A DNA stretch of 64,000 nucleotides from an uncultured Flavobacteriaceae bacterium (GTDB taxonomy: Bacteria; Bacteroidota; Bacteroidia; Flavobacteriales; Flavobacteriaceae), in contig CANLXN010000001.1 of assembly GCA_947495135.1 (NCBI GenBank), positions 248,001-312,000 of the forward strand, written 5' to 3'. Below, piece after piece: positions 51,490-64,000 of this stretch. The notes under the pieces are model-generated. The model was not told the origin of the DNA and ran no database searches. It was given only the letters and a program-made list of their open reading frames with translations. How positions within the stretch are numbered: the stretch's first letter is position 1; every line of letters starts with the position of its first letter. Both the position numbers and the translations under genes were made by a program.

Positions 51490-51666
51490 ATGAAAACTTT
51501 AAAACGCCTTTTTTTATTCGTAGCAATCGCATCATTCGTAGTTTCTTGTACACCAGAACAACTACTTAACGAAACAACAGATAGTAGTGTGGACACTTTC
51601 GCCACCGGAGATGGAGATGAATCGGGTACCGATGACGATAAGGATGGAGATGGTACTGGTAACTAA
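51490..51666 (+). CDS. 58-residue Asp/Gly-rich lipoprotein
   Basis: This short gene begins MKTLKRLFLFVAIASFVVSC, a lipoprotein signal peptide with lipobox VVSC. After TPEQLLNETTDSS the mature part ends in an acidic glycine-rich tail (DGDESGTDDDKDGDGTGN) that could bind divalent cations. It has its own terminator and lies directly before the TPR histidine kinase. The combination of a tiny secreted peptide and a sensor kinase is suggestive of signalling, but nothing in the sequence proves it. Confidence 0.72.
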   Translation: MKTLKRLFLFVAIASFVVSCTPEQLLNETTDSSVDTFATGDGDESGTDDDKDGDGTGN

Positions 51667-51689
51667 GCGACCAACATTATAAAAATATA

Positions 51690-51725
51690 AAAAAAGCCTT
51701 TGAAATAAATCAAAGGCTTTTTTTA
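51690..51725 (+). terminator. Terminator after the small lipoprotein gene
   Basis: AAAAAGCCTTTGA, AATAAA loop, TCAAAGGCTTTTTTT; 24 bases after the stop codon. Confidence 0.92.
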
Positions 51726-51739
51726 TATCTTTATAAATA

Positions 51740-53800
51740 ATGATTCACTACAAGCCATTGACTAAAATTTCATCTTTCTTTCTCTTCCTTTTAATAGTGG
51801 TGTTAATGCTTGTTGGCTGCGATGCTAAGAAGGAGACAAGCTTGGTTGAACTTAATGAAGAAGATCAACTTTTTGTTGTTTCATTGAAAAAGTCAAAGGA
51901 TAAAGGTTTGGGCTCTAAAATTCAGAAGGAGGCATTGAGTGACGCTTATTTGTTTAATACCCAAACTGATAACGACAGCATACGGGCATTTAACTTAAGA
52001 GCGGTTGCTTTTCAGGCATATAAATTAAATGATTCCACACTATTTAGAAAAGCAAATCTAGAAGCATTCGAGTTATCTGAAGATATAAACGATACTTTAG
52101 GAATTGCAGATACGTATTGGAATTATGGAGCGTTTTACGCGAAAAGGGATATTTACGATAGCGCATATGCTAACTATCAGAACGCTCATCGGTATTACAG
52201 CTTAATTAGAAGCGACTATTATGCAGGTAAGATGCTTTATAATATGGCTTTCATAAAAGGTAGATTAAAAGATTACACGGGTAGCGAAGTATTGACCTTT
52301 CAGGCAATTGCCAAATTCAAACAATTAGATAAGTATAAATCCTTATACACCTCTTATAATCATTTGGCAACGCTCTACAAAGGTTTGGGAGAATTTGATA
52401 AAGCACATTCTTATAATAACGAAGCACTTTCCTTTTTGTCTAACTTGAAAGATAAAAAAACGTTCTATGAAGGAAGTTTAAACAATATAGGCCTGGTGTA
52501 TCATGAGGAGAAGGAATATGACAAAGCGATTGAATATTTTAATAGAGCCCTTGAACGAGATGATTTAAAAAAAGTCAATATAGATTTATATGGACGACTA
52601 ATTGATAATAGAGCTTACAGTAAATTTCTAAATAACGACACTACAGGAATCTATAAGGAATTTATGACTTCTTTACATATTAGAGATAGCGTTAAAAACT
52701 ATGCAGGCATTGTCCATAATAAAATTCATATTGCTCAGTACCATGCAAAATTAGGAGATACTAATAAAGCAATAGATTTGGCCTTACAAGCAAAGAGTTT
52801 AGCTAAAGAAATAAACAATAACAGTGACTATCTTACCGCACTTGATCTCTTAGCCGATATCGATAAGTCTAACTCAGCCGCCTATTTCGAAGAGTTTATT
52901 CACTTAAATGATAGTCTACAAAGTGTAGAACGAAGAATTCGAAATAAATTTACGCGGATTGATTATGAAACAGATAAATATATAGAGGAGACGGAGCGAC
53001 TTTCCAAGGAAAGAGTGCTTATTCTTATTATCGGGTTTGCCGTTGTACTTATATTGTCATTACTTTATTTCGCCAATAGACAATATTCCAAAGGAAAGGA
53101 GTTGCTTTTTGAAAGTGAACAACAAAAGGCGAATGAGCAGATCTATTTATTATCACTTAAACAGCAGGCTAAACTTCAGGAAGGTAAGATTCAGGAACGA
53201 AATAGAATCTCTGAAGAATTGCATGACGGAGTGCTTGGTAAGTTGTTTGGAACTAGGGTCGGACTAGGGTTTTTAATGCCCAAACTTAGTACAGATAAAG
53301 ATGAAAAGTATAAATCACTCATTGGAGAACTACAAATAATTGAAAAAGAAATCCGAGATATTTCACATGAATTAAAAAATCATGATAGTTATGCATCCAG
53401 CGCTGGATTTTTTAACTTAGTAACGAAGCTATTGGATGATTCTAGCGAAGTTGGTAAGTTTAAATATAAACTAGAAAAGGAGGATACCGATGTTTGGGGA
53501 GACTTGGACGAGACAATAAAAGCTAATCTTTACCGAATAATTCAGGAATCACTTCAAAATACGATTAAATATGCAAACGCAACCATGGTGGTGGTGAGTT
53601 TTCTAGAAAATGAAGATAGTTTGGTTTTGTCCATTTCGGACAACGGGAACGGCTTTAAAATAGGTAAGCAAAAATCGGGTATCGGTTTAAAGAATATGCA
53701 ATCTAGAACCAAGAAGTTAAACGGTGAACTAGTAATAGAATCGGTACTTACAAAGGGAACAAACATTAAAATTATCATTCCAATTATAAAGAAAAAATAA
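51740..53800 (+). CDS. TPR-containing sensor histidine kinase (HisKA_3 type)
   Basis: This 686-residue protein has an N-terminal lipoprotein-like signal (FLFLLIVVLMLVGC). About 350 residues of tetratricopeptide repeats follow (YNMAFIKGRLKDYTGSEVLT, LNNIGLVYHEEKEYDKAIEY). A single membrane helix (VLILIIGFAVVLILSLLYF), a coiled coil, the HisKA_3 H-box RISEELHDGVLGKL and a HATPase (IIQESLQNTIKYA, SDNGNGFKIG, GIGLKNMQSR) complete it. This is the NarX/DegS-like class, paired with NarL-type regulators such as the next gene, which starts one base after its stop. The TPR region probably senses a periplasmic protein or peptide. Confidence 0.92.
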   Translation: MIHYKPLTKISSFFLFLLIVVLMLVGCDAKKETSLVELNEEDQLFVVSLKKSKDKGLGSKIQKEALSDAYLFNTQTDNDSIRAFNLRAVAFQAYKLNDSTLFRKANLEAFELSEDINDTLGIADTYWNYGAFYAKRDIYDSAYANYQNAHRYYSLIRSDYYAGKMLYNMAFIKGRLKDYTGSEVLTFQAIAKFKQLDKYKSLYTSYNHLATLYKGLGEFDKAHSYNNEALSFLSNLKDKKTFYEGSLNNIGLVYHEEKEYDKAIEYFNRALERDDLKKVNIDLYGRLIDNRAYSKFLNNDTTGIYKEFMTSLHIRDSVKNYAGIVHNKIHIAQYHAKLGDTNKAIDLALQAKSLAKEINNNSDYLTALDLLADIDKSNSAAYFEEFIHLNDSLQSVERRIRNKFTRIDYETDKYIEETERLSKERVLILIIGFAVVLILSLLYFANRQYSKGKELLFESEQQKANEQIYLLSLKQQAKLQEGKIQERNRISEELHDGVLGKLFGTRVGLGFLMPKLSTDKDEKYKSLIGELQIIEKEIRDISHELKNHDSYASSAGFFNLVTKLLDDSSEVGKFKYKLEKEDTDVWGDLDETIKANLYRIIQESLQNTIKYANATMVVVSFLENEDSLVLSISDNGNGFKIGKQKSGIGLKNMQSRTKKLNGELVIESVLTKGTNIKIIIPIIKKK

Positions 53801-53801
53801 A

Positions 53802-54479
53802 ATGAGGAAAAATTTCAAAGTATTATTAATTGATGACCATCCCCTAATTACTGGAGCTTATAAGAGTGCATTACAATTTGTTAGTGAAGAAAGCGGAGAT
53901 ATCCACTTTTTTATCGACACTGCAAATAATTGTGATGACGGATATCAGAAAATTAAAGATGCTTCAGAAAACAGTCACTTAGATATCATTTTTTTAGATC
54001 TCAGGCTGCCTCCATCTAAAGACAATAAAATATTATCTGGGGAAGATTTAGGCATTATAGTTAATAAGCTTATGCCAGAATCAAAGATTATTATTTCAAC
54101 TACATTTAATGATAACTATAGAATCCATAGTATTTTGAAAAACGTAAACCCAGACGGGTTTCTAATAAAGAATGATATCACTCCAGATGAAATTGTAACG
54201 GCTATTAAGAGTGTTTTGTTCGACCCTCCATATTACAGTAAATCTGTGATTCGATTATTGCGTACCGAAGTATCTAACGATTTTCTTTTGGACAAGATTG
54301 ATAGACGACTTCTATATGAACTTTCTATTGGAACAAAGATGAAAGATCTTCCGGACGTTTTACCCCTGTCCATTGCAGGTATTGAGAAGAGAAAACGCCA
54401 ACTTAAAGAAGTTTTTGATGTTTCAAAACTTGATGATAAAGAACTGATTCTCATTGCTAAAGAGAAGGGTTTTATATAA
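53802..54479 (+). CDS. NarL-like response regulator
   Basis: This 225-residue protein has a receiver domain with acidic pocket LLIDDHPLITG, phospho-acceptor in IIFLDLRLPPSKD, the switch threonine in IISTTFND and the lysine in FLIKNDI. The C-terminal part (LLYELSIGTKMKDLPDVLPL, IEKRKRQLKEVF) is a divergent LuxR-type helix-turn-helix. It is co-transcribed with the TPR kinase, one base apart. It sits directly upstream of the duplicated leader and the NRPS genes, which makes it the best candidate for their transcriptional regulator. Confidence 0.88.
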   Translation: MRKNFKVLLIDDHPLITGAYKSALQFVSEESGDIHFFIDTANNCDDGYQKIKDASENSHLDIIFLDLRLPPSKDNKILSGEDLGIIVNKLMPESKIIISTTFNDNYRIHSILKNVNPDGFLIKNDITPDEIVTAIKSVLFDPPYYSKSVIRLLRTEVSNDFLLDKIDRRLLYELSIGTKMKDLPDVLPLSIAGIEKRKRQLKEVFDVSKLDDKELILIAKEKGFI

Positions 54480-54504
54480 TTAGTCTCTCCTTTAAATTTT
54501 AATA

Positions 54505-54652
54505 GTGTAAGGATTCCCCTTACTTTTTCTACGACGATTGGTTTCCCAAAACTGGGTTAATCCGATACCTTTATTGCATAATAATTTTGTTTTATTCGCT
54601 GCTGAAAAGTGGGACTTGAAGTAGCGAAGCTGTTGCTAAATATTATTAATCA
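54505..54652 (+). repeat. Leader repeat, copy 1
   Basis: First of two imperfect direct repeats about 221 bases apart. It starts GTGTAAGG with the inverted repeat GTAAGG-ATTCC-CCTTAC (54507-54523), has TACCTTTATTG in the middle (54566-54576), and ends with the stem-loop AGTAGC-GAA-GCTGTTGCT (54620-54637) and TTAATCA. The stem pairs with a three-base GUU bulge. Confidence 0.7.
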
Positions 54653-54725
54653 ATAAGGTATTATTCATGTTTCATTTGCCAAATAACGGTGCAGATTCGG
54701 CTTTAAGGTTCCTGCCAATAGAAAA

Positions 54726-54872
54726 GTGTAAGGTTTCTCCTTACTTTCTCTATGTAGCCCGCTTTCTTAATTAGACATAAATCGAATAATTTTATTGTGT
54801 AGCAAATTTCTTTTTTCACGAATACAAACTGTGACTCAAGGTAGCGAAGCTATTGCCAAAATTTAACAATCA
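54726..54872 (+). repeat. Leader repeat, copy 2
   Basis: Second copy, ending 15 bases before the NusG-like ATG. It holds GTAAGG-TTTCT-CCTTAC (54728-54744), TAATTTTATTG in the middle, and GGTAGC-GAA-GCTATTGCC (54840-54857). Relative to copy 1 the outer pair of the second stem changes A-U to G-C and an inner U-G becomes U-A, so pairing is kept while sequence changes. Loop bases differ but stems are conserved. Confidence 0.7.
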
Positions 54873-54887
54873 CTAAAATCTTCGACT

Positions 54888-55418
54888 ATGAAACGTAAAA
54901 CAAGTATTGGGTGGCACGTAATCTACGTTAGATCCCGTTTTGAAAGAAAAGTACAAGAGAGCATCACCGAATTGTCGATAGAAACATTTGTTCCTATGGT
55001 AGAGACGGTAAGCCAGTGGAGCGATAGAAAGAAAGTGGTGATCAAGCCATTATTTCCTTCATATGTTTTTGTAAACATTACGTCTTCGATGGATTTTTAT
55101 AAGGCATTATCTGTTCATGGTGCTTCTGCATATATTAAGGTAGGAACAGATTACGCTACTGTACGGCAAGATGAAATTGATCGTATAAAATTTATGATGG
55201 ATGCTGAGGACCTCGAAGATGTTCAAACTAAACTCGACTTACCCAAGGTTGGAGAAATTAAAACGATCTCTTATGGCGCGCTAACCGATTTAGAGTGCGA
55301 GATACTAAAAGTAAATAATCAAAATAAGATTGTAGTACGATTAAATTCGTTGCAACAAAACATTGTTGCCACTATACCAGCTCACTATCTACGTGAGGAT
55401 GTAAAAGCTACAGCATAA
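54888..55418 (+). CDS. Specialised NusG paralogue (UpxY / LoaP-like antitermination factor)
   Basis: This 176-residue protein has the NGN domain opening WHVIYVRSRFERKVQESI, then FVPMVETVSQWSDRKK and KPLFPSYVFVNI, the typical pattern of UpxY-type NusG paralogues in Bacteroidota. A C-terminal KOW-like region follows (GEIKTISYGALTDLECEIL ... ATIPAHYLRED). Such factors ride on RNA polymerase and let it read through long operons. It lies 14 bases before an NRPS gene and after a duplicated leader, so it probably acts on its own operon. It is not the housekeeping nusG, which is normally beside ribosomal protein genes. Confidence 0.9.
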   Translation: MKRKTSIGWHVIYVRSRFERKVQESITELSIETFVPMVETVSQWSDRKKVVIKPLFPSYVFVNITSSMDFYKALSVHGASAYIKVGTDYATVRQDEIDRIKFMMDAEDLEDVQTKLDLPKVGEIKTISYGALTDLECEILKVNNQNKIVVRLNSLQQNIVATIPAHYLREDVKATA

Positions 55419-55432
55419 TTACCTTCTATATT

Positions 55433-57835
55433 ATGGATTCTATAAAAAATAAAATCGCAGTAGATTACTGGGTTGAAAAGCTTAAGCCGCTTGGATCAAT
55501 TAGACTTGATTGGATTGAGAGATCGGCGGCTAAAGCTTTTACTTTTGGACAAGACGATGCTACTTATTTCTCAAAATTAACGGGAGGGAAGGAAATAGCA
55601 GAAAAAACTATATTTCTTTCTGTTTTTTCAGCATTAATTCAACGTTATTTTGATAATAGCGCTTGGATTGTTTCGAATAACGGTCCAGCCGTTTACGATT
55701 TAGACATAACAAATACAAATTCTCTTAAGGATTACATAGAGGTTGCCAAAAAAGAAGTGCAAGCTGTTTATAAGCATATCAATTTTGACTTCGATATGGT
55801 TGAAAAAGCGCTTGGTAAAGATTCTTTTCTGAATTGTACTCCATTTGCAATCAATTACGGTGAAAATGAATTGGATTTTGGACTCCAAAACAATGCTTTT
55901 ATCTTAAATATTACGAAGATCAAAGATCAAGAATTCGTTTTTTCAATCGATTTTTCAAGCGATTTCGTTGAAGAAGAGGTTGCCAATCACTTTTTACAAA
56001 ATTTCTATGCCTGGATGAAGGGTCTAGCGCATTATATTGATACCGCAGTTACTCAGATTCCGATCATTTCAGAAGAAGAAAAGCAGCAAATACTTCATTT
56101 TAACCCTCTAAAAGACGGTGATATTAAGAATGATACGATTGTTAGTTTATTTGAGGATCAAGCGAAGAAGACACCAAAGAAAAAAGCGATACTTTTCGGA
56201 GAAACCTCGCTCACATATGCACAGCTCAATAAACAAGCAAATCAGCTTGCTAAATATTTAAGATCTCAGCATAATATAATTACAGACGATTTAATTGGTA
56301 TTAAGTTAGAACGAAATGAACGGTTATTGGTGGTAATACTAGGTGTTCTAAAATCTGGGGCGGCTTATGTCCCAATAGATGTAAACTATCCAGAAGATCG
56401 TAAGGCATATATTGAAAAAGACAGCAATACTAGGTTAGTTATCGATGAACAAGAACTGTATAGGTTCAAAAAAGTTCAGGGAGATTTCTCAGGAACTCGT
56501 TTAGATATTTCGATCGAACCAAGTGATTTAGCTTATGTAATCTATACCTCTGGTAGTACTGGAAATCCGAAAGGAGTAATGATTAATCATTCAAACGCTG
56601 CAAGTTTAATTAACTGGGCAAGTACGGAGTTTGATTCTTCTAGTTTTAATATGGTCTATGCCGCAACCTCTCATTGTTTCGATTTATCGATTTTTGAGAT
56701 GTTCTATACATTGGCCATCGGTAAGACTATTAGATTATTTAATACTTCATTCGATATTAGCTCTTATATACGAAAAGATGCAAAGGTGCTATTAAATACT
56801 GTGCCATCGGTGCTAAGAAGGCTAATCGATTCTGGGACAGAAATTCTTAATAATGTCACCAATATCAATTTGGCAGGAGAAGTGTTTCCGATAGATTTGG
56901 CAGCACAGCTTCCTTTGAATACAATTGCGGTTCGAAATTTATACGGGCCTTCTGAAGACACCACATATAGTACTAGTTTTCGTGTAAAAGCTTTAAATGG
57001 TACTGCTATATCTATTGGAAAAGCTATTTCTAATACACAAGCTTATATTTTAGATGAAAACCTTGAAGTACTGCCAGTTGGAATAACTGGTCGTTTATTC
57101 TTATCTGGAGACGGGATTGCTAGCGGTTATTTGAATCAGCCACAATTATCAAAAGAAAAGTTCGTTGACAATCCTTTTTCCGATGGAGTGCAGATGTACG
57201 ATACAGGAGATTTAGCCCAGTGGTTGGCCGATGGAAATATTTCTTTTATGGGGCGTATGGACGATCAAGTAAAATTGAGAGGTTACAGAATTGAGTTAGG
57301 TGAAATAGAATACAAAATAACTCAATATTCTGATGAGATACAAGAAGCGGTAGTTGCCGTAAAGGAAGTAGTTAATGAGCCTACGTTAATAGGCTATATT
57401 GTTAGTGACTATGATATCGACATTTCTCTGTTAAGAGGGTACTTGGCGACTCAATTACCGTCGTATATGATTCCAAGTTACTTCATTGAAATACCAGCTA
57501 TTCCAGTGAATGCAAACGGTAAGACAGATAGAAATGTGTTGCCAACTGCTACAGGAGAAAATACGGTGCGAAGCATTTATGTAGCACCAAAAAATAATAC
57601 AGAAGAAAAACTAGCTGCAATCTGGGAGGAATTACTAAAAGTAGAGCAGGTTGGAGTAACAGACAACTTCTTCGAATTAGGAGGGCATAGCTTAATCGTT
57701 AATCAGGCGATTAATAAAATGTATAAGGAATTGAATTGTGGAGTTAGCTATCAAGATTTTTTTGATGCTCCTACCATTGAAGCAATTGCCGATAAACTAA
57801 CGAAAACAGAAGCATATCTTCCAATACCTAAAGCC
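55433..57835 (+). other. NRPS module 1: C-domain remnant, A1, PCP1
   Basis: Residues 1-235 look like the C-terminal half of a condensation domain (VDYWVEKL ... NFYAWMKGLAHYI) with no HHxxxDG, as found at the start of initiation modules. A1 starts near residue 237 (VSLFEDQAKKTP) and shows YVIYTSGSTGNPKG, FDLSIFEMF, NLYGPSEDTTY, YDTGDLAQW and NGKTDRNVLP. Aligning by eye to GrsA, the ten specificity residues read D-L-F-N-N-A-L-T-Y-K. From memory this string is associated with alanine-activating domains. PCP1 serine is in FFELGGHSL. Confidence 0.75.
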
Positions 57836-60800
57836 GCTGAACAACTCAATTACCCGGCCACCGATGCACAGAAGCGTTTGTGGTTATTGAGCCAGATGGA
57901 TGGTGGTACACAAGCCTATCAAATTGCAGGCGCTCTTGAATTGAGTGGGAATGTCAATATCGAAAATTTTGAATCGGCTTTTAGAAGAGTAGTATCGCGT
58001 CATGAAATTCTAAGAACCTATTTTCAACAAACCCCACAGGAAGATCTAGTTCAGTACATTATTCCTGTAACCGATTTCAATTATGAGATAGAATCGTTAG
58101 ATCTATCTGGATATGTAGATTCTGACGTTCGTTTTCAGGAGTATGTAAAAGACCAACAAGAAAATGCCATTCGATTATCGCAGGCACCGCTCTTTCGGGC
58201 TTCAATTATAAAAGTAGATACTAATAAATATATATTTTTCATATTGCTTCACCATATTATTGGTGACGGCTGGTCTTTGGAGAATCTAACTTCTGAAGTA
58301 GTTGAAAATTATAGAATGATAGAAGCTGGAGAGATTTCTCTAGTAGAACCATTAACTGTTCAGTTTAAAGATTACGCCGTTTGGTTGAAAGATCAATTAG
58401 ATGCGAGTGCAATTGCGAAGGACAAGGCATATTGGATGGATACGTTTAGCGGACCAGTGGTTCCGTTGCAACTTCCAAGTTTTAAGAGCCGCCCTTTGGT
58501 TAAAACTTATAATGGAAATAAAATAAGATTTACATATTCTGAAACAACACTTAACAAGCTTAAGGAGTTTTCAAAACTGAATCAGGTTACTCTATTTATG
58601 ACCTTGTTTTCGGGGGTAAAGTCTTTGTTGGCTCGTTATAGCAATCAGAGTGATATCACCATTGGTACTCCTATAGCTGGAAGATCACATCCAGATTTAG
58701 AGGAACAAATTGGATTATATCTAAACACGTTGGCAGTTCGAAGTGAGATTGATGCAAACGACTCTTTCTTAACCGTGCTCCAACAGGAAAAACAATTACT
58801 ATTAGGCGCATATGCGCATCAAAACTTTCCATTCGATAGTTTAGTAGAGGAGTTAAATATGGAGAGGGATACATCTCGAAGTGCTTTGTTCGATATAATT
58901 GTAGCTCTTCAGAGTCATCAACAACTTTCTAAGTTTCAACATCAACGAGAGGTTAACGATATGGTAATCGCTAATTATGATTTACCGCGAGCTACTGCTC
59001 AGTTCGACATAGCCTTTACTTTTGTTGAAGAAGGATGTCTGTTTCTGGATATTGAATATAATACAGATATATATGAGGCAGACTTTATGGAAACAATGTA
59101 TCTGCATTTAGGGAATTTATTTACTACCGTATTAAAGAATGTAGAAACTAGAATTGGGGATATTGATTTTATTTCTCCAAATGAAAACATCTTATTGTTG
59201 GAAGAGTTCAATGATACTGATGCACCACATAATAAAGATTTAACGATACTAGATTTATTTAGTAAACGAGTTGCGGAAACACCTTCCAATATTGCAGTCG
59301 TTTATGAAGGTACAGAAATTACGTATCAAATATTAGAGGAACAATCTAATAAATTAGCACACTATATTTTACAAAATTATGAAATCTCTAATGAGGATTT
59401 AATCGCTGTTCAATTAGAAAGAAGCGATTGGCTGATAATAGCAATGTTGGCTATTTTAAAGACAGGGGCGGCTTACGTACCTATCGATGTTGATTATCCT
59501 GAAAGTAGAATAGAGTTTATTATTGATGACACCAAGACAAAATTGGTTTTGAATGATCATCTTTTATCTGCCTTCTCTAAAGTAGATGGATTACCTAATC
59601 GACCTCCAATGAAAGAAATTACCGGAGCCAACCTCGCTTATGTAATCTACACTTCTGGATCTACCGGAAAGCCTAAAGGTGTGATGGTGGAACACAGTAG
59701 TCTTGTTAATTTATGTGAATGGCATATTAGAAACTACAACGTAACTGAGCAGAGTAGGGGAACACTATTCGCAGGAATTGCTTTTGACGCCTGTGTATGG
59801 GAAATATATCCATATTTAGTTGCAGGAGCCACATTGTATCCAATTAACAAAAATGAAATTAGATTAGACATTGAAAGATTAAGTTCATTTTTAAGAACTG
59901 AGCAAATAACACACGCTTACTTACCGTCAAAAATTTGCCAGGACATGGTGGAGAAAGGCATATCTAACTTAGATACTGTTATTTTAACTGGAGGGGAAGC
60001 GTTGAAGTACAGTAAGGCAACGGACTTACAGATTTATAATAATTATGGACCCACAGAGAATACCGTGGTTACTACCTATTTTAATTGCAGTGACCATACC
60101 GATGAAAACATTCCAATTGGAAAGCCAATCGATAATACACGTGTATATGTCGTGTCCAAAAATATGAAGTTACAACCCATTGGAGTGATAGGAGAACTAT
60201 GTATTTCAGGGAGTGGATTATCACGAGGTTATTTAAATCAGCCAGAATTAACAGATATTAGTTTCGTTCCTAGCCCTTTTATTGAAGGAGAGCGTTTATA
60301 TAAAACAGGGGATTTGGTACGTTGGTTACCAGATGGTAACATAGAATTTGAGGGTAGAAAGGATAATCAAATTAAGATTAGAGGAAATAGAATTGAGCTA
60401 GGTGAAATTGAATATGCCGTTCTTTCTTATTCTTCAAATATTCATCAAGCTGTCGCCTTATTAGTTGATATAAACAACGAAAAGGATATCGCAATTTATT
60501 ATGTAGCCTCTACAACTATTGATGAAAAACCGTTAAGAGATTATTTAAAATCTCAACTTCCAGTTTATATGGTTCCAGGTTATTTCCTTGAATTGGAGGC
60601 AATACCGTTAACCGTTAACGGAAAAGTGGACATAGTGAAGCTGCCAAATGTGACCGAGAATGATCGCGTGCGAAGCGCTTATGTAGCTCCTTCCAATCAA
60701 GTAGAGGAGAAACTGGTTGTTATTTGGTCGGAAATTCTAGAAAAGGACATCATTAGTGTAAGCGATGACTTTTTTGAGTTAGGTGGACATAGCCTATTGC

Positions 60801-63800
60801 TAATTAAACTTACCAATGAATATTTTAGAGAATTTAACGTAGATCTTGATTTACAAGCAATCTATGCTAATACTACTTTATTGGATCACAGTAAATTAAT
60901 TTTGGAGTCTTCGCCTTCAGATTTCATCAATATTGATCCTATAGTAGAGGGTGAGTTTTATGAAGTTTCGCCTTCACAAATGCGGTTTTGGTTGTTGAAT
61001 AAAATCTATGGTAAATCCAAAGAATTCAACATATACAGTACGCTAGAATTACCAGAAAATTTAAATCTAAGAGCATTTGAATATGCTTTTAATAAACTTA
61101 TAAAAAGACATGAAATTTTAAGAACCGTTTTTGTTGAAAAGAATGGTAATCCAAAACAGGAAGTACTTCCAAATCAGACAATAGAGATTCCACTCGTTAA
61201 CGTCGCGGACACGAGCCACGTCAAAAATCAGGTCTTTAGTTGCGAATTCGATTTGGAAGTCTTTCCTCTTTTTAAAATTGCATTGGTTAAATCTGAGGCA
61301 AAATTTATGTTGTTTTTTAATATACATCATATTCTTTGTGATGGGTTTTCCATTGGTATTATTCAAAAAGAGTTGATGGAGATCTATAATGCCAAGTGCT
61401 CAGATCGATTACCAAAGCTTCCAATTTTGGATGTTCATTATAAAGACTATGCGCATTGGCAAAATGAACTATTGGTTTCTGGAAAGATATCAAAACAACA
61501 AGAATATTGGATGAATCAATTTACGGGAGAGTATCCGTATGTACAATTACCAATAGATTATGTGAATAAAGCTAAAAGCATCACGTCTTCTTCTGCGTTT
61601 TACACAGTCTTTTTAAATGAAGAGTTAAAAAATAAGATTATTACTTTATCTGTAGATATGAAGGTAAGTGTCTTTGCAATTTTTGTCGCGGGATTAAAAA
61701 TATTACTTCATAGACTTACTGGAGAGCAAGATATTATTTTGGGGATTCCCGCTGCAAATAGAAATCACTATCAACTAAAAAATATGGTAGGTTGTTTTCT
61801 TAACACATTAATGTTAAGGGATCATGTAAATCCAGCAATGAGTTTTTCTCAATTCTTGTTGAACGTACAGAAAACATTAACCGGGGCTTTGGCAAATCAA
61901 AGCTATCCTTTCGAGTCCATGTTATCAGATTTGAATGTACCAAATGACCATAGTCGTTTTCCTCTTAGTTCTGTTTTTCTTAATATGTTAGACTTTGCGT
62001 CTAATTCGGTTGAAAGAATCGAGAGTTTTGACATCATTACGGGGAATTTAGAATCCTCGCCTAAATTTGATTTCGAGTGTTATTTGAAAAGCTTCGAGAA
62101 TGGATTTTCTATGAATTGTGTCTATGACAACGGTTTGTTTAAAGAAGAAACTATCGCTCTTTGGATGAATGAATATACTTCTATTATTAATCAAGTAGTA
62201 AGCAATATCTCTACTCCAATCTATGAAATTGAATTATTGGAAACTTTTGTTTTGGAAGAAGAATATCCAAAGCCTACCAACGATTTTAATTTCTTCGAGG
62301 ATGCAGAAGTAGAAAACACCATTGTACAAAGATTTGAAACGCAAGCTGCGAATTACCCGCTTAGAGTTGCAGTTAGGTCTGAGGAAAACGAATTGACGTA
62401 TGCCGATTTAAATAATCGAGCAAATGATTTGGCTGTGAAAATTTCCGAAGTTGTAGGGAATGAGACTCAGCGAATCGCGTTGGTCTTAAATCACGACGAG
62501 ACCTCGGTGATAGGAATGTTAGGTACACTTAAAGCAGGACATACTTATGTGCCAATAGATTATGCCAATCCGCTAACTAGGCTCAAGTACATTGTTGAGG
62601 ATGCTGCTTGCCAGGTAATTGTATGTACAGCCGCTACTCAATCAAAGGTTATTGAGTTGCAAAAGGAACTACCAAATTTGAAAATTGTGGTACTTCCAGT
62701 TGAAGGACCTTTAGAGGACATTCCAAACCTTGAAAATGATATTGATCCATTTCAAGAGGCGTATGTACTATATACTTCAGGATCTACTGGACAGCCGAAA
62801 GGAGTAAGACAGAATCATAGAAATGTCCTTCATTTTATTAGAGTTTATACCAACAATATAAATATCAGTACGGAAGACAACCTCAGTGTATTTTCAACCT
62901 TTACATTCGATGCTTCTGTAAAAGACATTTACGGAGCGATATTAAATGGAGCGACCGTAAGTTTTTATAGCATTGTAGAAAAGGGATTAGCCGGTTTAGC
63001 AGATTGGATGAATACACAGTCTATTACTATTATTCATATGGTTCCTACTATTTATCGACATTTCATGAATCAACTATCTATGAATGAAGTGATCGAAACA
63101 GTAAGAATTATTGATATGGGAGGAGAAGCGTGTGTTAAAACTGATGTAGATCAATTTAAAAATCACTTTAATAGCGATGCCTTATTTATTAACGATTATG
63201 GGCCTACAGAGTCTACAATAGTTTCGCAACGAATTTTGTCTCACGATTCAGAATTAACAAGACATGCGGTTCCATTAGGAAAGCCAGTATTAAATACGGA
63301 AGTTTTTCTATTGACGAAGGATAATAAGAAAGCTAAGATGTATGAAGAAGGAGAAATTGTATTTAAAAGCGATTATTTGTCTTTGGGGTACTTAAACCTG
63401 GAAGAATTAACGAACAAAATGTTTACCATTGATCCAATAGAAAAGAATGGTAGAGTCTATCGATCTGGGGATATAGGGCGAATGCTTCCAAATGGTGAAA
63501 TTGAATTTGTTCAAAGAAAAGACAGTCAGATAAAACTAAACGGAATGCGAATTGAGCTCTCCGAAATCGAATTCCAATTGGAAAAATTGGAAATGGTAGA
63601 AGAAGCAATTGTAATGCTAAAAATGGTAAATAATAATAACCATTTAGTGGCCTATGTCCGAACAGAATATGAAGTTGATAGCAATACAATTAAGCAATCA
63701 CTAAAAAGTAACTTACCTAAACATATGGTACCAACTATTTTCGTGCCGGTAGATATTTTTCCGTTAACTCGGACAGGTAAAATTGACAGAAAGAAATTGC

Positions 63801-64000
63801 CAACTCCTTCGTTATCTCAATTAAATATGGAGGATTTTATCGCTCCTGAAAATGAGATCGAAAAGCAATTGGTGGGAGTTTGGGCTGAAGTACTCAAATT
63901 AGATGACTATGAAATTGGTGTAAAAGATAATTTCTTTGAGCTAGGAGGAAATAGTCTTCAGGCAGTATTGCTTATTAATAAATTAAATAAGGAATTTGAT
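55433..64000 (+). CDS. Non-ribosomal peptide synthetase, at least three modules (continues beyond the window)
   Basis: Open from ATG at 55433 to the window edge: 2856 codons without a stop. Domain order by visible motifs is partial C, A1, PCP1, C2, A2, PCP2, C3, A3, PCP3. The three A-domain P-loops (TSGSTG(N/K/Q)PKG) are at residues 372, 1407 and 2448. The phosphopantetheine serines in (D/N)FFELGG(H/N)S are at residues 753, 1787 and 2841. The condensation motifs HHIIGDG and HHILCDG are at residues 940 and 1965. No epimerisation, methyltransferase or thioesterase domain is seen in the window. It assembles a peptide by thiotemplate chemistry in the cytoplasm. It follows the NusG paralogue by 14 bases, in the same operon. 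The protein end, later modules, release domain and export genes are outside the window. Confidence 0.95.
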   Translation, partial: MDSIKNKIAVDYWVEKLKPLGSIRLDWIERSAAKAFTFGQDDATYFSKLTGGKEIAEKTIFLSVFSALIQRYFDNSAWIVSNNGPAVYDLDITNTNSLKDYIEVAKKEVQAVYKHINFDFDMVEKALGKDSFLNCTPFAINYGENELDFGLQNNAFILNITKIKDQEFVFSIDFSSDFVEEEVANHFLQNFYAWMKGLAHYIDTAVTQIPIISEEEKQQILHFNPLKDGDIKNDTIVSLFEDQAKKTPKKKAILFGETSLTYAQLNKQANQLAKYLRSQHNIITDDLIGIKLERNERLLVVILGVLKSGAAYVPIDVNYPEDRKAYIEKDSNTRLVIDEQELYRFKKVQGDFSGTRLDISIEPSDLAYVIYTSGSTGNPKGVMINHSNAASLINWASTEFDSSSFNMVYAATSHCFDLSIFEMFYTLAIGKTIRLFNTSFDISSYIRKDAKVLLNTVPSVLRRLIDSGTEILNNVTNINLAGEVFPIDLAAQLPLNTIAVRNLYGPSEDTTYSTSFRVKALNGTAISIGKAISNTQAYILDENLEVLPVGITGRLFLSGDGIASGYLNQPQLSKEKFVDNPFSDGVQMYDTGDLAQWLADGNISFMGRMDDQVKLRGYRIELGEIEYKITQYSDEIQEAVVAVKEVVNEPTLIGYIVSDYDIDISLLRGYLATQLPSYMIPSYFIEIPAIPVNANGKTDRNVLPTATGENTVRSIYVAPKNNTEEKLAAIWEELLKVEQVGVTDNFFELGGHSLIVNQAINKMYKELNCGVSYQDFFDAPTIEAIADKLTKTEAYLPIPKAAEQLNYPATDAQKRLWLLSQMDGGTQAYQIAGALELSGNVNIENFESAFRRVVSRHEILRTYFQQTPQEDLVQYIIPVTDFNYEIESLDLSGYVDSDVRFQEYVKDQQENAIRLSQAPLFRASIIKVDTNKYIFFILLHHIIGDGWSLENLTSEVVENYRMIEAGEISLVEPLTVQFKDYAVWLKDQLDASAIAKDKAYWMDTFSGPVVPLQLPSFKSRPLVKTYNGNKIRFTYSETTLNKLKEFSKLNQVTLFMTLFSGVKSLLARYSNQSDITIGTPIAGRSHPDLEEQIGLYLNTLAVRSEIDANDSFLTVLQQEKQLLLGAYAHQNFPFDSLVEELNMERDTSRSALFDIIVALQSHQQLSKFQHQREVNDMVIANYDLPRATAQFDIAFTFVEEGCLFLDIEYNTDIYEADFMETMYLHLGNLFTTVLKNVETRIGDIDFISPNENILLLEEFNDTDAPHNKDLTILDLFSKRVAETPSNIAVVYEGTEITYQILEEQSNKLAHYILQNYEISNEDLIAVQLERSDWLIIAMLAILKTGAAYVPIDVDYPESRIEFIIDDTKTKLVLNDHLLSAFSKVDGLPNRPPMKEITGANLAYVIYTSGSTGKPKGVMVEHSSLVNLCEWHIRNYNVTEQSRGTLFAGIAFDACVWEIYPYLVAGATLYPINKNEIRLDIERLSSFLRTEQITHAYLPSKICQDMVEKGISNLDTVILTGGEALKYSKATDLQIYNNYGPTENTVVTTYFNCSDHTDENIPIGKPIDNTRVYVVSKNMKLQPIGVIGELCISGSGLSRGYLNQPELTDISFVPSPFIEGERLYKTGDLVRWLPDGNIEFEGRKDNQIKIRGNRIELGEIEYAVLSYSSNIHQAVALLVDINNEKDIAIYYVASTTIDEKPLRDYLKSQLPVYMVPGYFLELEAIPLTVNGKVDIVKLPNVTENDRVRSAYVAPSNQVEEKLVVIWSEILEKDIISVSDDFFELGGHSLLLIKLTNEYFREFNVDLDLQAIYANTTLLDHSKLILESSPSDFINIDPIVEGEFYEVSPSQMRFWLLNKIYGKSKEFNIYSTLELPENLNLRAFEYAFNKLIKRHEILRTVFVEKNGNPKQEVLPNQTIEIPLVNVADTSHVKNQVFSCEFDLEVFPLFKIALVKSEAKFMLFFNIHHILCDGFSIGIIQKELMEIYNAKCSDRLPKLPILDVHYKDYAHWQNELLVSGKISKQQEYWMNQFTGEYPYVQLPIDYVNKAKSITSSSAFYTVFLNEELKNKIITLSVDMKVSVFAIFVAGLKILLHRLTGEQDIILGIPAANRNHYQLKNMVGCFLNTLMLRDHVNPAMSFSQFLLNVQKTLTGALANQSYPFESMLSDLNVPNDHSRFPLSSVFLNMLDFASNSVERIESFDIITGNLESSPKFDFECYLKSFENGFSMNCVYDNGLFKEETIALWMNEYTSIINQVVSNISTPIYEIELLETFVLEEEYPKPTNDFNFFEDAEVENTIVQRFETQAANYPLRVAVRSEENELTYADLNNRANDLAVKISEVVGNETQRIALVLNHDETSVIGMLGTLKAGHTYVPIDYANPLTRLKYIVEDAACQVIVCTAATQSKVIELQKELPNLKIVVLPVEGPLEDIPNLENDIDPFQEAYVLYTSGSTGQPKGVRQNHRNVLHFIRVYTNNINISTEDNLSVFSTFTFDASVKDIYGAILNGATVSFYSIVEKGLAGLADWMNTQSITIIHMVPTIYRHFMNQLSMNEVIETVRIIDMGGEACVKTDVDQFKNHFNSDALFINDYGPTESTIVSQRILSHDSELTRHAVPLGKPVLNTEVFLLTKDNKKAKMYEEGEIVFKSDYLSLGYLNLEELTNKMFTIDPIEKNGRVYRSGDIGRMLPNGEIEFVQRKDSQIKLNGMRIELSEIEFQLEKLEMVEEAIVMLKMVNNNNHLVAYVRTEYEVDSNTIKQSLKSNLPKHMVPTIFVPVDIFPLTRTGKIDRKKLPTPSLSQLNMEDFIAPENEIEKQLVGVWAEVLKLDDYEIGVKDNFFELGGNSLQAVLLINKLNKEFD
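57836..60945 (+). other. NRPS module 2: C, A2, PCP2
   Basis: The condensation domain starts at YPATDAQKRLWLLSQMDGG and has an intact HHIIGDGWS at 58250-58276. A2 starts near residue 1271 (TILDLFSKRVAETP), with YVIYTSGSTGKPKG, FDACVWEIY, NNYGPTENTVV and YKTGDLVRWLPDGN. The specificity residues read by eye are D-A-W-Y-L-G-N-V-V-K, one change from the remembered leucine code D-A-W-F-L-G-N-V-V-K, so leucine or a related aliphatic residue is likely. PCP2 serine is in DFFELGGHSLLL. Confidence 0.75.
60946..64000 (+). other. NRPS module 3: C, A3, PCP3 (cut by the window edge)
   Basis: The condensation domain begins YEVSPSQMRFWLLNK and has HHILCDGFS at 61325-61351. A3 starts near residue 2296 (TIVQRFETQAANYP), with YVLYTSGSTGQPKG, FDASVKDIYGA, NDYGPTESTIV and YRSGDIGRMLPNGE. 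The specificity residues read by eye are D-A-K-H-D-G-D-I-V-K, which I cannot assign to a known substrate. PCP3 serine is in NFFELGGNSLQAV, 48 bases before the window ends. Confidence 0.7.

Follow-up and report, generated by a model that had tools for sequence, protein, structure and literature searches.

Can a specialised NusG paralogue be devoted to a non-ribosomal peptide synthetase (NRPS) cluster in a flavobacterium and, if so, where would it be loaded onto the RNA polymerase? The issue is raised by a stretch of 64,000 nucleotides (nt) from an uncultured Flavobacteriaceae bacterium, here called the window (G000:C1:248001-312000), in which upxY, the gene for a NusG paralogue, lies immediately 5′ of an NRPS gene. 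The answer that we regard as likely is that UpxY heads and serves its own operon, and that a conserved element, present twice in the upxY leader, is an ops-like site for the loading of UpxY onto paused polymerase. The original prediction for this DNA had placed the paralogue 14 bases ahead of the NRPS gene and behind a 408-base leader (54480-54887), and positions of open reading frames (ORFs) confirm both. The features first needed are as follows.

54601-54645, plus strand: ops-like element copy 1, with hairpin AGCGAAGCT at 54623-54631
54821-54865, plus strand: ops-like element copy 2, with hairpin AGCGAAGCT at 54843-54851 and predicted pause T-1 at 54853
54888-55418, plus strand: upxY, a UpxY-family NusG paralogue of 176 amino acids (NF033644, Pfam NusG domain, tree)
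55433-64000, plus strand: first NRPS gene, open at the window end

The part of the NRPS gene within the window has three A, two C and three PCP stretches; the complete ORF is of 2899 amino acids, with its stop 132 bases beyond the window.

The protein and the genes that it heads

To which family does the paralogue belong? It had been termed UpxY/LoaP-like, and of that description the first half stands, as the product scores 126.6 bits with the NCBIfam UpxY model (NF033644, cut-off 100), while LoaP assignment is ruled out by a score of 57.3 bits against a cut-off of 125 (NF033641). It also falls short with the models for RfaH (70.3 bits, cut-off 144.5) and NusG (33.2 bits, cut-off 135.7). Judged by these sequence scores, it is a member of the UpxY family and not a LoaP. 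The one further UpxY-model match in the same genome, at 66.1 bits, is presumably the housekeeping NusG. A profile search of PDB sequences had NusG-type and RfaH chains among its matches, and Foldseek with the AlphaFold model, in which beta strands are seen though at low confidence (pLDDT 57), pointed to an NGN-type fold, with matches to RfaH and NusG entries. The beta strands of this low-confidence model were also looked at with the C-terminal domain of RfaH in mind, which is alpha-helical and autoinhibiting until it refolds.

On extension of the contig past 64000 the megasynthase genes carry on, on the same strand, so that the run from upxY (C1:302888) to C1:396781 measures about 94 kb. It contains multi-module NRPS genes, a KS-AT-KR-ACP polyketide synthase (PKS) gene, and genes for an aminotransferase, a TauD-type oxygenase, a TonB-type outer membrane protein, a thioesterase, an ABC exporter and a phosphopantetheinyl transferase (domains from Pfam, run on some of the large ORFs). 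The end of the cluster was set at the transferase by judgement; past it are two plus-strand ORFs, to 399120, and then a minus-strand gene. The widest gaps in the run are 441 bases and the 408-base leader itself. We infer that a single transcript crosses the run, and its start is likewise presumed.

Is the partnership of upxY with such genes kept in relatives? In a protein search across the family, 25 of 397 genomes had a match at E 1e-20, and within the matches there is a step from 42% identity (159.7 bits) down to 35% (103.1 bits). Together with six loci from another search, the 15 matches on the upper side of the step make 21 distinct loci, counted without L007, which is the same Bizionia locus as L064. 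In a tree these form one clade, the window protein included (support 96/93), apart from the polysaccharide-associated UpxYs. With megasynthase queries against downstream same-strand ORFs, NRPS or PKS genes were found in 18/21 clade loci versus 1/27 UpxY loci from outside it (Fisher 3e-9), for which the downstream DNA ranged from 1.9 to 17.6 kb. The other 26 comprise 20 with polysaccharide matches, labels that come from seven query proteins, three of them picked by eye, and 6 with neither. The association spans Aquimarina, Bizionia, Tenacibaculum and other genomes. The idea of a NusG paralogue dedicated to an NRPS is supported, and its foreseen undoing, a protein grouping with capsule UpxYs in a pair that no relative conserves, did not materialise. 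The clade loci where no NRPS or PKS gene was found are G011, which has merely 1.2 kb of contig after upxY, Aquimarina AU474 (L013) and G021.

Two divergent loci deserve mention in their own right. The most divergent clade member (42%), L075 (G021:C19), heads caspase-domain and leucine-rich-repeat genes. The one NRPS-linked locus among the 27, L222 (G192:C31), encodes a UpxY just 29% identical, with NRPS genes from 4.6 kb downstream; it is sister to the 21-locus clade on a long branch (94/85), and possibly represents a second origin of the association.

The element in the leader

Comparison of the relatives' leaders brought to light a common block, TGTGACTnA-n4-RGCGAAGCY, within an element whose consensus is TGTGACTnAnnnnRGCGAAGCYRTR. 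It lies before or just after upxY in 20/21 clade loci, as a match to the pattern in 18, as a variant recognised by eye and scored with model R1 in G380, and in G307 as a copy behind upxY, outside the training set, that R1 matched. R1 was built from 21 copies (alignment A1), i.e., matches to a hairpin pattern plus the G380 copy, and the inner pairs are thus partly there by construction; the match of the closing pair and the T at -1 (21/21 in A1) were not selection criteria. A second alignment, A2, adds R1 matches, so is biased towards R1, and has 41 sequences; G007 also has a first leader copy, which is degenerate and was not included. In their own genome the window copies, both used in training, score 35.2 bits (E 6.0e-5) and 48.2 bits (E 1.8e-8) with R1, which finds no other significant copy there (next match E 0.82). 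The first-look candidates were scored in part (150 of 1487 in the own genome, 15 per family genome, 45 in the Bacteroidia scan), and weak copies may escape.

What in the element would speak to a polymerase? In A2 the inner hairpin G and the T two bases past the hairpin are invariant (41/41), and they are spaced as G-10 and T-1 of the consensus pause. The hairpin has a GNA triloop on three pairs, and its closing pair, -11:-3, covaries (AU 20, GC 19, GU 1, other 1). A promoter-like pattern, TTG-N17-21-TAnnTTTG, is present within 350 nt upstream of 11/90 sites and downstream of 0/90, with a mean of 3.1 on shuffling, and the element is therefore probably part of a transcribed leader.

Some other identities were considered and set aside. 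A second hairpin further upstream, with a GTGAC loop, shows two-sided changes in 4/5 pairs, and 57% of its A1 cells are paired and 43% unpaired; it was rejected as a general part, being broken in the window copies, and RNAalifold kept the inner hairpin only. A known riboswitch or leader RNA was likewise rejected, the Rfam matches in the window being sub-threshold: between 50000 and 64000 (E up to 5) nothing rises above gathering score at the element copies, although an alpha_tmRNA match of 12 bits (gathering 50) overlaps copy 1, and at 14 other loci (E up to 1) Rfam gave no match at the element. The literal ops, GGCGGTAGCGTG, is absent from the leader, where the elements read GGTAGCGAAGCTATTG and AGTAGCGAAGCTGTTG.

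The element beyond the clade

A test set was made of the 55 best-scoring UpxY loci of two protein searches, none of which had a part in building the matrix, and the A2 position matrix was run on each strand over a region that starts 400 nt ahead of upxY and ends 700 nt past it. With a score of at least 12 there are 16 sense and 0 antisense matches, and at 8 or 10 there are 16 and 1. All 16 element-bearing loci are among the 31 from Bacteroidia. Outside that class, weak sense-strand matches with model R2 were seen at L156 (17.2 bits) and L140 (16.0 bits). UpxY was defined in gut Bacteroides, named members of which lie outside the sample. At the level of genomes, R2 matches (E 0.05) occur in 26/148 Bacteroidia genomes, 24 of these being among the 47/149 with a UpxY over cut-off (the two sets, not quite the same in that one genome or more is different, were otherwise taken as equal); the association has a Fisher value of 1e-12, or 3e-11 minus three training genomes.

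Does the element also stand where upxY does not? Minus training genomes there are 28 R2 matches, 11 within 700 nt of a UpxY on its strand and 17 elsewhere, 15 of the latter having been inspected and four (L198, L205, L207, L212) being chance-like or unclear. Pfam, run on ten first genes after such elsewhere copies, gave two UDP-glucose/GDP-mannose dehydrogenases, a polysaccharide export protein, an ABC-2 permease and two cytidylyltransferase-like products, with nothing relevant for the other four. R1 finds a match at E 0.05 in 53 of the 397 family genomes, many of them weak, and 3 matches, all Bacteroidia, in 30 UpxY loci; its untrained matches include copies beside capsule-type UpxYs. At seven inspected element loci no UpxY was seen in the 15-20 kb around. 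The copies of L118 and L119 precede NRPS genes (blast), that of L119 being about 19 kb downstream of the upxY of the same contig, and those of L120, L121, L122, L125 and L127 precede polysaccharide-type genes, a reading mostly from ORF starts with blast backing for L121 and L125 only. Copies without upxY are 5′ of NRPS genes in G225 and G209 and of polysaccharide-type genes in G283 and G033, the latter also in other families. Beside the copies of L193, L196, L200 and L204, and in the ORF upstream of that of L126, there is a recurrent protein of 177-197 amino acids with a start like MLDTLISSKTRLKLLLKFFLN, for which no Pfam match was found among three examined.

We lean, with some reserve, towards a wider proposal, namely that the element is the main UpxY loading site in Bacteroidia and a counterpart of ops that either arose independently or is very ancient, with trans regulons joining capsule and natural-product operons, and that the NRPS/PKS clade is an antibiotic-type specialisation.

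The leader duplication and the genes upstream

In the window the leader is duplicated in tandem, at a spacing of about 221 nt, each repeat unit having one terminator-like hairpin and one conserved element.

54507-54523, plus strand: terminator-like hairpin 1, GTAAGG-n5-CCTTAC, then a T-rich run
54667-54774, plus strand: ORF of 35 amino acids after element copy 1, in leader sequence
54728-54744, plus strand: terminator-like hairpin 2, after element copy 1 and ahead of copy 2

By eye, the ATG of the 35-amino-acid ORF is placed after copy 1 as the upxY start is after copy 2, and the ORF is possibly a relic of the duplication. In similar style, L073 (2490-3290) repeats leader plus element three times in tandem; an intact upxY comes immediately after the third repeat, and the first two are followed by what appear, by eye, to be degenerate upxY starts. 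A TAAGG-CCTTA hairpin with T run occurs 152-159 nt 5′ of upxY in 6/21 clade loci, two of which have another at 372-380 nt, and loci without the kinase and regulator genes described next are among its bearers.

51490-51666, plus strand: putative small lipoprotein, ORF of 58 amino acids, tied to the system by position only
51740-53800, plus strand: TPR sensor histidine kinase (Pfam TPR_12, HisKA_3, HATPase_c)
53802-54479, plus strand: response regulator, probably NarL-type (Pfam and NCBIfam, sub-cut-off)

These genes lie further upstream, on the strand of upxY. Pfam bears out the TPR histidine kinase of the original prediction. Its partner holds as a response regulator, at 28.5 just under the Response_reg gathering score of 30.2, while the NarL-type helix-turn-helix is suggested only by sub-cut-off NCBIfam matches (MctR, NarL, NarP); the G007 counterpart is 89% identical. 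As for the tiny lipoprotein, the ORF is present, with a lipobox judged by eye and no Pfam or NCBIfam family above cut-off. Between it and the kinase gene (51684-51729) is a 20-pair inverted repeat with a T run, terminator-like on the minus strand. The supposed link of the pair to the NRPS holds as adjacency in the window but not across the clade: the pair is upstream in 3/21 loci (window, G007, G380), and the two-component connection is therefore weak, a local input at most.

How UpxY might be loaded, and what else could be at work

As a specialised NusG paralogue, UpxY would act on the operon that it heads. Polymerase in the leader would pause at the ops-like element, the bases exposed in the bubble would form the small GNA-loop hairpin, and UpxY would recognise it, displace housekeeping NusG and remain bound, so letting polymerase traverse the roughly 94-kb NRPS-PKS run without premature release. 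As the element occurs close to upxY on either side and also ahead of separate operons, Bacteroidia UpxYs may act through it both in cis and in trans. Pausing, UpxY binding, recognition of DNA rather than RNA, processivity and the antitermination attributed to the window UpxY are all putative steps. That no strong terminator turned up between the genes, in a strict scan without positive control, would point to resistance to pausing or Rho, as with RfaH, and not to intrinsic terminators, as with LoaP.

A number of observations weigh against this scheme. The pause frame is partial, with G at -2 in 17/41 and at +1 in 20/41, and window copy 2 carries T at +1. The bare 9-nt hairpin is predicted to be marginal both as DNA (-0.6 kcal/mol for the G-C form, -0.1 for the A-T form) and as RNA (-1.3 and 0). 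The promoter pattern is missing within 350 nt upstream of the window copies. No strong intrinsic terminator was found in 22 gaps from 302480 to 396909; the rule applied was strict, lacked a positive control and also missed the hairpins of the window leader. The poor AlphaFold model of the protein (pLDDT 57) is counted here too. In the clade, AU474 has solute-binding and ABC genes and no NRPS within 10 kb, and G021 (L075) has neither element nor NRPS. In the test set the element was not found by matrix in 15/31 Bacteroidia loci, or in any of 24 from other classes; for the half of Bacteroidia UpxY loci in question, either the element has diverged or other signals exist. The element and UpxY could each follow polysaccharide or biosynthetic gene cluster content, without contact between the two.

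If the scheme is to be doubted, what would take its place? The main rival to an ops-like DNA signal is that UpxY, in LoaP-like fashion, binds the element as a nascent RNA hairpin and not as a non-template DNA hairpin, which is unlikely though a serious contender. LoaP uses a small leader RNA hairpin in two Bacillus antibiotic operons (PMC12691694), the GTGAC-loop hairpin covaries in part of the clade, and in the two longer pieces folded the stem is lengthened by flanking bases, with greater stability in RNA than in DNA; yet an RNA site would have no need of the fixed G-10 to T-1 spacing of a pause register, G-U accounts for only 1/41 at the covarying pair, and the GTGAC-loop hairpin is not formed in the window copies, nor in the 43% of A1 cells that are unpaired. 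The ops-like DNA signal is favoured because its register of pause plus hairpin resembles that of RfaH recruitment (PMC5995543). That the kinase and regulator are the true specific control, with upxY a generic processivity factor carried along, is improbable: the pair is directly upstream in three loci, and the missing promoter pattern would allow a single transcript from the kinase gene, but 18/21 clade loci are without it among the nearest upstream ORFs listed, whereas the element and NRPS/PKS genes persist.

Might the element instead be the promoter-proximal site of an ordinary transcription factor, UpxY merely co-occurring with such operons? Copies without upxY do sit just 5′ of operons, some promoter patterns are close upstream of the element, and its TGTGA is similar to one half of a CRP-type site. 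Set against these are the sense bias near upxY (16 versus 0 at score 12), the promoter patterns upstream with none downstream, the genome-level association with UpxY and the pause register, and we judge this proposal quite improbable. Hardly credible is that a capsule-type UpxY stands beside the NRPS gene by chance, known though UpxY is from capsule operons (PMC7593976, PMC7819879), and long-branched as is the NRPS-linked L222, outside the 21; the association is kept in Aquimarina, Bizionia, Tenacibaculum and other genomes, within a supported clade.

Comparison with known systems

In the open-licence literature searched no description was found of such an element or of an NRPS-linked UpxY, and according to a 2020 study it was unknown how operon-encoded NusG paralogues are recruited (PMC7593976). 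A candidate site of some 25 nt makes UpxY recruitment directly testable, allows regulons to be predicted from sequence and could give access to silent megasynthase clusters in Bacteroidota.

The window UpxY has in common with the capsule UpxYs of Bacteroides fragilis its family, over a curated cut-off, its place in front of a long run of genes and a leader upstream; unlike them it precedes an NRPS/PKS cluster and belongs to a separate clade, and here there is a candidate loading element with copies away from upxY. UpxZ (PF06603), sought as a route to operons of the Bacteroides type, was found in 0/395 Bacteroidia genomes, a result made uninformative by control genomes that gave none either. 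TaA of Myxococcus xanthus, likened by description and not by sequence, is also a NusG paralogue tied to a polyketide operon, one of 40 kb (PMC7819879), though in another phylum. LoaP, the NusG paralogue of the Bacillus difficidin and macrolactin operons, shares devotion to antibiotic-type megasynthase operons and a leader signal (PMC12691694), but its site is a UNCG hairpin where the window element has a GNA loop, and no strong leader terminator is found here by the strict rule, which lacked a positive control.

There is also a parallel with RfaH, recruited at ops by a consensus pause and a non-template DNA hairpin (PMC5995543). Likenesses are the pause spacing, the small hairpin predicted at the bubble, the location in the leader, the long operons and the presence of copies at a distance from the factor's gene (PMC5995543, PMC7593976). 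Differences are the GNA triloop with three pairs and the TGTGACT block upstream, and between GGCGAAGCYGTG and ops GGCGGTAGCGTG 7/12 bases agree ungapped, or 8 if Y is C (by eye). The element shares the layout of ops and not its sequence. As a candidate loading site it suggests that recruitment by pause plus hairpin recurs outside Proteobacteria.

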